Of a stretch of DNA of 64,000 nucleotides, positions 40,083 to 61,017 are shown one piece after another. The stretch spans positions 372,001 to 436,000 of the forward strand of contig NZ_RKLR01000002.1 in assembly GCF_019599465.1 (NCBI RefSeq). Direction: 5' to 3'. Numbering within the stretch: the stretch's first letter is position 1; every line of letters starts with the position of its first letter. A program made the translations under genes and the position numbers. Source of the DNA: Haloarcula rubra. Lineage in GTDB: Archaea; Halobacteriota; Halobacteria; Halobacteriales; Haloarculaceae. The notes beneath the pieces were generated by a model that ran no database searches, was not told where the DNA came from, and saw only the letters and a list, made by a program, of their open reading frames with translations.

Positions 40083-40964
40083 ATGCAGTGGCAAACCGAC
40101 TGGGGACTCCGCGGTCGGATGGCCTTGACGATGTTCCTGCTGTTCGGGCTGTACATCGTCTTCATCGGCCTCCTCAGTCTGTACTTCACGAACTTCGCCG
40201 CCATCGTGCTGGTGATGGCGCTGTTCATGGGCGCGCAGTTCTTCTTCAGCGACAAACTGGCGCTGTACTCGATGGGCGCCCGCGAGGTCGACCCCGACGA
40301 GTACCCCGAACTCCACCGGATGGTCGACCGCCTCTCCCAGCAGGCCGACCTGCCCAAGCCGAAGGTCGCCGTCGCGGACTCGCGCACCCCCAACGCCTTC
40401 GCGACCGGTCGGTCCCAGAAGAACGCGGCCGTCTGCGTGACAACCGGCCTCATGCGCATGCTCGACGACGAGGAACTGGAGGGCGTCGTCGCCCACGAAC
40501 TCGCGCACGTCAAGAACCGCGACGTGATGGTGATGACCATCGCCTCGTTCCTCTCGACCATCGCCTTCCTCATCGTCCGCTGGGGGTGGCTCTTCGCCGG
40601 CGGCCGCGACCGCGGCGGCCAGCAACAGGCCCCGGTCTTCGTCGCCATCCTCGCCTCGCTCGTGGTGTGGATAGTGTCGTTCCTCCTGATTCGGGCGCTC
40701 AGCCGCTACCGGGAGTTCGCCGCCGACCGCGGCGGGGCGTCCATCACCGGCAAGCCCTCGGCGCTGGCGACGGCGCTGATGAAGATAGACAGCGGGATGG
40801 AGAAGGTGCCGGAAGACGACCTGCGCGGCCAGTCGGAGATGAACGCGTTCTTCATCGTCCCCATCCGCATCGGCTGGATCGGCCGCCTGTTCAGCACCCA
40901 CCCCCAGACCGAGAAGCGCATCGACCGCCTCCGGGACATGGAACGCGAACTAGAGGGTCGCTGA
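40083..40964 (+). CDS. htpX: M48 zinc metalloprotease HtpX
   Basis: 293-residue membrane protease. Two N-terminal transmembrane helices (about 12-55), the zinc motif H138-E139-L-A-H142, two more helices (VMVMTIASFLSTIAFLIVRW, VFVAILASLVVWIVSFLLI), then the third ligand region REFAADRGGASITGKP. HtpX degrades damaged membrane proteins under stress. It is followed by pspAB with a structured repeat element in between; the HtpX-PspAB pairing is known from haloarchaea and suggests an envelope-stress module. Confidence 0.94.
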   Translation: MQWQTDWGLRGRMALTMFLLFGLYIVFIGLLSLYFTNFAAIVLVMALFMGAQFFFSDKLALYSMGAREVDPDEYPELHRMVDRLSQQADLPKPKVAVADSRTPNAFATGRSQKNAAVCVTTGLMRMLDDEELEGVVAHELAHVKNRDVMVMTIASFLSTIAFLIVRWGWLFAGGRDRGGQQQAPVFVAILASLVVWIVSFLLIRALSRYREFAADRGGASITGKPSALATALMKIDSGMEKVPEDDLRGQSEMNAFFIVPIRIGWIGRLFSTHPQTEKRIDRLRDMERELEGR

Positions 40965-41010: not shown

Positions 41011-41146
41011 GCCAGAAAGCCCAGTGGAACGTCCGGCTGGTGGGACCGAAAGGGGCCAGTCGCTCGGCGTTCGAGACGAAGTAAGCACCGTGCGGAGCGA
41101 GGCGCGCAGCGAGTCGCAGTAGCCGAGCGACTGGGGGCTTTCTGGC
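41011..41146 (+). repeat. Structured intergenic repeat element, copy 1
   Basis: In order: outer box GCCAGAAAGCCC (41011-41022); GGGACCGAAAGGGGC (41042-41056); 5' arm CCAGTCGCTCGGC (41056-41068); loop box CGAAGTAAGCACCG (41077-41090); 3' arm GCCGAGCGACTGG (41122-41134); closing box GGGCTTTCTGGC (41135-41146). The 13-bp arms pair perfectly, and GAAAG (41048-41052) pairs with CTTTC (41138-41142) across a GGG/GGG mismatch. The closing box is also the exact complement of the outer box. It lies between htpX and pspAB. A second copy with different stems is at 60550-60727. Confidence 0.85.
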
Positions 41147-41213: not shown

Positions 41214-41831
41214 ATGGGACTGTTGGACGGACTCAAGAGCGTCCTCGGCGTGAAGGCCGAGGCCGACGCCACCCGCGACGCCGACCCGGAGGACCTCTTC
41301 GGGATGTCGACGGCCTACGTGACGATGGAGGCCGACCTCGGCTACGAACCCACCGGCGACGCCGCTCTCTGTTTCGGCGACGTGGACAGCACGGACTTCC
41401 AGGACGCCAAAGACGAGGTGGAGACCATCCTCGAAGCCGGGGAGGCCGAGACGGGCACCGTCGCGGAGTTCACCGAGGACGGCCACGGCTACCAGTGGGT
41501 CGTCCTCCACGACGACGACTTCGAGGACCTCGTCACCTCTATCCACTTCGCCGCCGACACGCTCATCGAACGACGCTACGGGTCGCGGCTGTTGGCCGCG
41601 CTCTTCGGCTTCGAGGACGGGCGGACCGGCGACCCCGTCTACTGGGTGTACTCCTTCCGCCGTGGGGCGTACTACCCGTTCGCCCCGGGCCCAGACCGGG
41701 ACCACGAGCGCAACACGACGGCGGAGTTCAAGTTAGAGAGCAACCTCGACGGCGAACTCACCGTCGAAGGGGACAAGGAGTTCTGGTACCCGCTGTGGCC
41801 CGACCGTTCCGGGGACCACCCGTGGGAGTAG
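41214..41831 (+). CDS. pspAB: PspA-associated protein PspAB
   Basis: 205 residues, soluble and acidic: MGLLDGLKSVLGVKAEADAT, STAYVTMEADLGYEPTGDAA, GYQWVVLHDDDFEDLVTSIH and FYPLWPDRSGDHPWE-like C-terminus (ends EFWYPLWPDRSGDHPWE). I recognise this as the haloarchaeal PspAB family, encoded beside HtpX and implicated in PspA-type membrane-stress responses. A TATA-like CTTATCC about 27 nt upstream suggests its own promoter downstream of the structured repeat. Biochemical function not known. Confidence 0.83.
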   Translation: MGLLDGLKSVLGVKAEADATRDADPEDLFGMSTAYVTMEADLGYEPTGDAALCFGDVDSTDFQDAKDEVETILEAGEAETGTVAEFTEDGHGYQWVVLHDDDFEDLVTSIHFAADTLIERRYGSRLLAALFGFEDGRTGDPVYWVYSFRRGAYYPFAPGPDRDHERNTTAEFKLESNLDGELTVEGDKEFWYPLWPDRSGDHPWE

Positions 41832-59482: not shown

Positions 59483-60460
59483 CTACTGGCCTTTCGCGAG
59501 GGTGGCCAGCATCGCCTCCAACTGCACCGTCTCGTTGGCCCCCTGCGTGATGCGGTAGTCCGTCTCCCCGACGCGTTCGAGGATGCGCACCGCCGCCTCG
59601 TCGTCGACGTCGAACTCCCACACCGACCGGTGTAACTGGTCGATGACGTCGCCGCCGGCGATGCCTTCCTCGGTGAGCAGTCTGTCGAGGGTCGCACGGG
59701 CGGCGGTGAAGTCGCCGTCGAGCGCCGACTGGACCATGTCGTGAATCTCCTCGGGCCGGGCCGTGGAGGTGATGGCGTACACCGCCGACTCGTCGACCAC
59801 GTCGCCGCTGACCGACGCCGCCTGCAGGCCGTTGATGGCCTTGCGCATGTCGCCGGCGGCGGCGTAGACGAGTGCGTCCACGCCGTCGTCGGTGAGTTCG
59901 ATGTCCTCCTCGGCGGCGATGTGGCGAATCTCCTGTTCGACGGCGTCGTCCGACAGCGGCGAGAACCGGAAGACGGCACAGCGGGACTGGATGGGGTCGA
60001 TGATCTGACTGGAGTAGTTACACGAGAGGATGAAGCGGACGTTGTTCGAGAACTGCTCCATCGTCCGGCGCAGCGCGGACTGGGCGTCGCTGGTCAGCGC
60101 GTCGGCCTCGTCCAGGAAGATGATGCGGTACTCGTGACCCCCGAAACTGGTCCGCGCGAAGTTCTTGATGCGGTCCCGGACCACGTCGATACCCCGCTCG
60201 TCGGAGGCGTTCAGTTCGAGGAAGTGCTCGCGCCAGTTCTCACCGTACAACTCGCGGGCGATGGCCGTCGCACAGGTGGTCTTGCCGGTGCCCGCCGGCC
60301 CCGAGAACAACATGTGCGAGAGGTCGTTGCGCCGGACGTAGCTCTGTAGTCGGCCCACGATGTCCTCGTGGCCCATCACGTCGTCCAGAGAGTCCGGACG
60401 GTACTTCTCTATCCACACCTCTTCGCGTCCCGCCCGCGACTCGGACTCGGCCTCACTCAT
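59483..60460 (-). CDS. rfcS: Replication factor C small subunit
   Basis: 325-residue clamp-loader ATPase of the AAA+ family. Walker [11 protein letters not shown] (about 53-62), Walker [12 protein letters not shown] (about 113-123), the SRC box ([11 protein letters not shown]), sensor 1 [10 protein letters not shown] and the C-terminal collar helices are present. With the large subunit it opens and loads PCNA. No intein is seen, although haloarchaeal rfc genes sometimes contain them. The start ATG 60460. Confidence 0.97.
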
Positions 60461-60816
60461 GGTCGGTCGGAGGCGCGGGCTAGCCTTAAACGCCCCGCTA
60501 GCAGTGTTCGGACTCGGCGTCAGTGACGGAGTAGTATCGCCTGCGAACCGCCAGAAAGCCTCGGCCGGCTACGCTTCCGCGGCTCGCTGTGGTCCTCGTC
60601 ACTCACTGCGTTCGTTCCTGCGGTCCTTACTTCGCCGGGGTTCGCGTAGCCGGCCGCCCCTCTTCGGTCCCGCCCGCTCGGTTGGTCCACGGGGCGCGCG
60701 AGCCGAGACGCCCGGGGCTCTCTGGCCGTACGTAGCCGAACTCCGAGCGATATGCGGTCCGGTTTCGCGTCTCCCCAGCCGACACACTCAAGCCGTCCAT
60801 CCCGATACACGGAGGT
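60461..60816. other. 356-nt intergenic region holding repeat copy 2
   Basis: Between the start of rfcS (minus) and samp2 (plus), so it must contain two divergent promoters. About half is the structured element listed separately. No small ORF with protein character is seen in it. Confidence 0.55.
60550..60727 (-). repeat. Structured intergenic repeat element, copy 2
   Basis: Read on the minus strand in order: GGCCAGAGAGCCCC (60727-60714); GGGACCGAAGAGGGGC (60671-60656); 5' arm GGCCGGCTACGC (60655-60644); loop box CGAAGTAAGGACCG (60634-60621); 3' arm GCGTAGCCGGCC (60574-60563); closing GGCTTTCTGGC (60560-60550). The 12-bp arms are perfectly complementary but share no sequence with the arms of copy 1 (41011-41146), while the boxes are conserved. 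Confidence 0.85.
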
Positions 60817-61017
60817 ATGGACGTCACCGTGGAGGTGGCCGGCGAGGAGACCCACGACCTCACGGTCGAGGACGACGCCACCTACGCCGACCTGCTGAAG
60901 CCGCTGGACCTCTCGCCGCACGCGGTGTCGGTGCTCGTCGACGACCGGACGGTCCCGACGAACCAGCCAGTCGAGGACGACCACGTGCGCGTGGTCCGTC
61001 TCATCAAGGGCGGCTGA
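60817..61017 (+). CDS. samp2: Ubiquitin-like small archaeal modifier protein SAMP2
   Basis: 66-residue beta-grasp protein ending in LIKGG, the diglycine tail needed for conjugation and sulfur transfer. The body MDVTVEVAGEETHDLTVEDD, TYADLLKPLDLSPHAVSVLV and VEDDHVRVVRLIKGG closely follows characterised SAMP2. Activated by the E1-like UbaA elsewhere in the genome (known from Haloferax), it modifies proteins on lysine and supplies sulfur for tRNA thiolation. ATG 60817. Confidence 0.95.
   Translation: MDVTVEVAGEETHDLTVEDDATYADLLKPLDLSPHAVSVLVDDRTVPTNQPVEDDHVRVVRLIKGG

Follow-up and report, generated by a model that had tools for sequence, protein, structure and literature searches.

The attC sites of integrons consist of conserved end boxes around a hairpin that varies in sequence but keeps its pairing, and they are used as single strands. 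Among dispersed palindromic repeats, the REP families surveyed in PMC3733652 are assigned to bacterial phyla. The SMR-A and SMR-B elements of Haloquadratum walsbyi are about 110 bp long, have inverted terminal repeats and no known transposon or mobiliser, and occur in tens of copies; the SMR types are described as strongly conserved, their copies commonly exceeding 95% identity, and SMR-A as inserting into PATEs and IS605-type transposons (PMC3119063).

The element considered here occupies positions 41011-41146 of the window, that is, of the whole stretch of 64,000 nucleotides of Haloarcula rubra DNA that was analysed. It is probably a copy, now decayed, of a composite palindromic repeat that is dispersed in the class Halobacteria, mobile and similar to BIMEs. 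The earlier note had placed it between htpX and pspAB, and both neighbours have the corresponding Pfam matches. The features of the region, and a second copy in the window, are as follows.

40083..40964, plus strand: htpX, the upstream neighbour, Peptidase family M48 (Peptidase_M48; Pfam PF01435, E 7.7e-40)
41011..41022, minus strand: outer box GCCAGAAAGCCC (R'), an inverted right-hand end box with perfect 12-bp pairing
41023..41041, plus strand: spacer, whose counterpart in the close relative G022 (L070) has the opposite orientation
41042..41055, plus strand: left box GGGACCGAAAGGGG, family consensus GGGACTGAAAGGGG
41056..41068, plus strand: 5' arm of stem P2, paired perfectly with 41122-41134 (13 pairs)
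41069..41121, plus strand: inner part, a type 1 interior containing short helices and the conserved internal loops GACGAAGTAAGCAC...GCGCAGCGAGTC; the inner helices covary
41122..41134, plus strand: 3' arm of stem P2, covarying
41134..41146, plus strand: right box GGGGCTTTCTGGC (R), comprising the closing box and one G in common with the stem
41214..41831, plus strand: pspAB, the downstream neighbour, PspA-associated protein B (PspAB; Pfam PF22742, E 9e-74)
60550..60671, minus strand: another complete single copy of the family, matched by the covariance model with E 3.4e-16 (G000:C22:432550-432671)

The second copy is flanked at 59483-60460 by a replication factor C gene and, on the other side, by a small reading frame at 60817.

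The outer box, the 13-bp stem and the closing box are all present as the earlier note had described them. R' and positions 41135-41146 form a terminal inverted repeat with 12 of 12 perfect base pairs, in line with the exact complementarity of the outer and closing boxes claimed before. The statement that the closing box has two partners holds. Both pairings exist and exclude each other, but they are not balanced: when each is enforced, the outer pairing yields -73.0 kcal/mol and the continuation of the inner stem -65.8 kcal/mol, a gap of 7.2 kcal/mol, the 13-bp inner stem being present in both folds. The GAAAG/CTTTC continuation of the inner stem is real (41048-41052 pairs with 41138-41142), but a GGG/GGG mismatch separates it from the stem.

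One inverted repeat alone is weak evidence, since in the GC-rich window 10 inverted repeats are perfect over 12 bp or more within 160 nt, compared to 0-7 (mean 2.7) in ten dinucleotide shuffles. The segment as a whole does fold as a structured element: on the plus strand it outdoes 199 of 200 shuffles (z -3.1), and on the minus strand all 200 (z -5.7). It is through its relatives, that is, the covariance-model matches in its own genome and the covariation, that the element is far beyond chance.

A search of the same genome with this segment produced more copies on several contigs, sharing the boxes and having different but self-complementary stems. The repeat unit, of about 95-165 bp, consists of the left box GGGACTGAAAGGGG, a copy-specific hairpin and the right box GGGGCTTTCTGGC; the hairpin stems vary between copies yet remain paired. 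Twenty copies of type 1 align well, with mean column identity of 65%. In this alignment two-sided changes occur in 16 of the 27 specified pairs, and in P2 at 12 of 13 pairs. There are 92 two-sided cells, whereas column shuffles give 26.6 (sd 4.0) and slid controls no more than 14. The fraction of paired cells, 97.8%, is inflated, as the pairs were specified with folds of the same sequences; this does not inflate the two-sided changes relative to shuffles. The short helices within the conserved purine-rich loops covary as well. The covariance model built from the 20 copies, five of which come from the genome of the window, has nine matches in this genome (E from 7e-19 to 5e-5), two of them in the window, at 41042-41146 and 60550-60671. 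In Rfam 15 there are no matches at the gathering score: the window segment has none up to E 5, and its relatives match only microRNA models below the threshold.

Copies of type 2 have the boxes and the outer stem in common with type 1, whereas their interior contains CNNCTAT/ATAT loops. In G286, which has 62 exact boxes, the inner stems of the copies inspected are highly variable but matched. The P3 stems of type 2 contain 201 Watson-Crick, two G.U and one A.C pairs. Stems that are almost free of mismatches even when totally different might be neutral palindromes that have no function and do not move, their arms staying perfect because template switching corrects one from the other. However, correction of arms does not explain why unpaired boxes and internal loops are conserved throughout the class. 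In addition, counts of the left-box 14-mer far exceed those of the reversed pattern, and this is the least probable of the explanations considered. A type-2 copy with similar flanks is seen in several species of the genus (L009, L044, L047, L048, L055, L065) and is probably a single orthologous copy that has long been retained. The hairpins of some copies (L004:1541-1600, L042, L097, L059) contain pairs of small palindromes (TTCGAAAGRCGC..GCGYCTTTCGTGATGACGAGAGAGC..GCTCTCTCGAACCAC) that look like a second small repeat targeting the first.

The exact left-box 14-mer GGGACTGAAAGGGG was found in 87 of 146 genomes of the taxonomic family of the host, with up to 127 occurrences per genome, and in 215 of 391 genomes of the class Halobacteria, representing 62 of 86 genera. 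The reversed pattern, taken as a control, occurs 0 or 1 times per genome and strand. The statement in the earlier note that similar elements are scattered in haloarchaea was correct, and no function assigned to them was located. In a phylum-wide sample outside the class, the 14-mer occurs only as rare singletons, the same as the control, which is the chance level. Within the class the distribution is patchy, many genomes and whole genera lacking the repeat. The named genomes of a collection contain the 15-mer at 118 loci, of which 78 pass the paired-hairpin test; all sixteen bacterial loci are among the 40 that fail it. Copies of the family are found on haloarchaeal plasmids as well. Spread by viruses was considered and rejected: the 16 matches of the 15-mer in IMG/VR have no right box, and phage records gave no match.

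None of 148 placed copies overlaps a gene, as predicted by a simple gene finder based on codon usage. Single copies lie along co-directional genes in 44 cases and against them in 20, and in divergent and convergent gaps in 30 and 12 cases, respectively. No replication-strand bias was seen by eye in G286, where the strands are mixed along the chromosome. Strictly intergenic location and near-perfect palindromes could be expected of a DNA structure recruited by the host, such as a cruciform or a protein-binding site, for chromosome organisation, recombination or marking of transcription-unit boundaries. This is improbable, as copy number varies from 0 to 127 irrespective of the genome size, and convergent gaps are not enriched.

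Thirty htpX loci of the genus, including the one in the window, were compared and fall into five states.

Complete double element (3 of 30): L093, L096, L097
Downstream hairpin only (3 of 30): window, L072, L083
Upstream hairpin only (3 of 30): L086, L090, L095
Boxes or spacer only (5 of 30): L069, L070, L084, L085, L094
No recognisable element (16 of 30): in several of these, what comes after htpX is another gene or a different neighbour

The complete double elements consist of head-to-head hairpins bounded by the same box as R'. Locus L072 is an intermediate of hairpin loss, with R' fused to an inverted left box. Given this intermediate and the locus states, the outer box of the window is a remnant, the end box of a mirror-image half that has been lost. 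The earlier note had suggested an attenuator or switch, and two exclusive pairings in the window between co-directional genes would suit a cis-acting regulator of the htpX-pspAB transcript. However, the folds differ by too much for an even choice, the two-partner layout is not kept at orthologous loci, more than half of which have no recognisable element, and the same element lies beside unrelated genes in this and other genomes. Such a regulator is highly unlikely. The two-partner pairing is, as judged from the compared sequences, a by-product of the palindromic architecture, the second partner being a leftover end box.

The interior of the element in the window aligns to that of G022 only when flipped, while the HtpX proteins are 96% identical. 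For the spacer the alignment score is 42 in the flipped and 14 in the unflipped orientation, shuffles giving at most 22. Flipped interiors are also observed in L093 relative to L086, and in L090 and L094 relative to L083, L095 and L096. These alignments demonstrate an inversion of the element interior in place between relatives.

In the family at large, units occur alone, head-to-head around a spacer of about 20-25 nt, or tail-to-tail. The left boxes often form divergent pairs 37-46 nt apart, which correspond to two head-to-head hairpins with the right boxes as terminal inverted repeats. Units are also reiterated in tandem together with flanking DNA. In G286 (L225-L253, L249, L262), the left box is preceded by tandem units of about 30 bp (CCGGTGACACAATCCACCG), and downstream the right end (GTAGCGAGCGGGCGGGGGCTTTC) recurs every 54-58 bp, the intervening sequence being partly unique. 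In several genomes the left box adjoins, on its upstream side, a further recurring module, GCGCGAGGGACGA..hairpin..GTCGGCTGGGGAGG (L249, L257, L268, L269).

At the junction of genes that were named GNAT and mutase by reading their translations, the element is present in G286 (one copy), G365 and G447 (two copies each), and absent from the short intergenic regions of G264, G275 and G282. No target duplication is recognisable at this junction, the only one inspected, where the boundaries of the insertion are not definable. An acetyltransferase-like gene beside an empty site (L270, G264:C2:557702-558327) is inverted singly relative to G286, G275 and G282. Two pairs of distant copies in G286, L249/L255 and L239/L240, have the unit in common and diverge right after the GGGGCTTTC box. 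The copies L239 and L240 are 8 kb apart and inverted, with near-identical flanks and outer stems, and their inner hairpins are completely different and well paired. We cannot explain this difference otherwise than by a candidate exchange of the inner hairpin as a block.

The P2 stems show a preference of strand. On the GAAAGGGG strand of 122 distinct stems there are 42 G.U and 11 A.C pairs (35 stems vs. 7, p 1.5e-5, related stems being not fully independent). In head-to-head pairs the counts are 14 and 1, and the two hairpins favour opposite strands. The count was limited to P2 after the first counts had been seen: whole hairpins have 33 G.U and 63 A.C, dominated by conserved mismatches of the internal loops. 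The P3 and P4 stems of type-2 hairpins are too perfect to reveal strand polarity. The excess of G.U suggests that the GAAAGGGG strand folds, as RNA or as single-stranded DNA, strand-biased mutation being the alternative. Since the two hairpins of a pair point in opposite directions, it is unlikely that one transcript reading through both is the form commonly selected.

One possibility is that the repeats are a family of structured non-coding RNAs, protein-binding or regulatory, with the hairpins transcribed from the GAAAGGGG strand and the copies being paralogous RNA genes. The strong covariation, the conserved internal loops, the excess of G.U over A.C and the prevalent orientation along co-directional genes agree with this. 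On the other hand, many genomes and whole genera lack the repeats, copies are freely lost, duplicated and inverted at one site, head-to-head hairpins prefer opposite strands, and the inner stems of type 2 have only two G.U pairs of 210. Overall, a family of RNA genes is unlikely.

A mobile repeat accounts for copies that are dispersed, patchy, strictly intergenic and in part borne on plasmids, for the mosaic locus states with inversions in place, for presence and absence at an orthologous junction, and for the divergence of the G286 copies right after the right box; dimers and tandem reiteration are known for REP clusters (PMC3733652). On the other side, no insertion was caught at the strain level, no target duplication could be defined and no transposase or partner was located, and the conserved internal loops with covarying helices are equally compatible with a function in RNA.

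In a mechanism that may be proposed for such a mobile repeat, a putative trans-acting enzyme would recognise the box and the hairpin as a single strand, and the same enzyme would copy the single-stranded box with the hairpin into intergenic DNA. A hairpin could be lost by deletion between the C4/G4 runs at its base, and interiors might flip when the inverted end boxes recombine or serve for template switching. In the broadest form, the repeats would be class-wide mobile hairpins of haloarchaea acting as a single strand, RNA or DNA, by a mechanism unlike that of RAYT or classical transposases, with inner hairpins swapped as blocks and interiors inverting between short end boxes. We propose this form tentatively, as it is rather doubtful.

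The candidates considered gave no mobilising partner. Of eight Y1_Tnp loci none is flanked by repeats on both sides, a single box lying about 1.4 kb off in L282, and G169, with 66 boxes, has no Y1_Tnp match. An autonomous transposon was sought between facing boxes in four intervals, L156 from a Halobacteriales MAG and L254, L255 and L256 from G286; in this non-exhaustive set they contain ordinary genes and no recognised transposase.

No archaea-related description of the box sequences was found in the literature searched; an earlier description in subscription journals or supplementary tables is possible. The archaeal family is abundant and sharply defined, previously unlisted and absent from Rfam, and its life history can be read from pairing, hairpin loss and inversion in place. 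As Haloarcula, Halorussus, Haladaptatus and Natrinema are culturable carriers, movement, transcription and a partner protein are testable. More generally, 'structured intergenic elements' of haloarchaea may be repeats and not gene-specific riboregulators.

Compared to the known systems, the family resembles REP/BIME of the GTAG and CGTC families in several respects: the hairpins lie between genes next to a conserved tag that is not paired, their stems show alternative complementary residues as well as G.U pairs, dimers are both head-to-head and tail-to-tail, units are reiterated in tandem along with the DNA that flanks them, and the spread among species is uneven (PMC3733652). It differs in the size of the unit, about 95-165 bp vs. 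20-40 bp in REP (PMC3733652), in the long tags, one on each side (GGGACTGAAAGGGG and GGGGCTTTCTGGC, where REP have GTAG or CGTC), in the complex covarying interior, in the lack of linkage to RAYT and in the archaeal host. With SMR it shares haloarchaeal hosts, similar size, inverted end boxes and copy numbers in the tens. However, its copies have common boxes and folds and different stems, as seen from the mean column identity of 65% among 20 copies and from inner stems that differ within one genome, SMR being compared by description only; unlike SMR-A, the placed copies are in intergenic DNA. Similar to MITEs, the repeats are short, non-coding and dispersed, with inverted terminal repeats, but the copies are not homogeneous in sequence, no parent transposon with these ends was recognised in the four inspected intervals, and no target duplication is recognisable at the one junction inspected. 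Unlike integron attC sites, the haloarchaeal family has no gene cassettes or arrays and has other boxes, so that the likeness is that of the working principle only.
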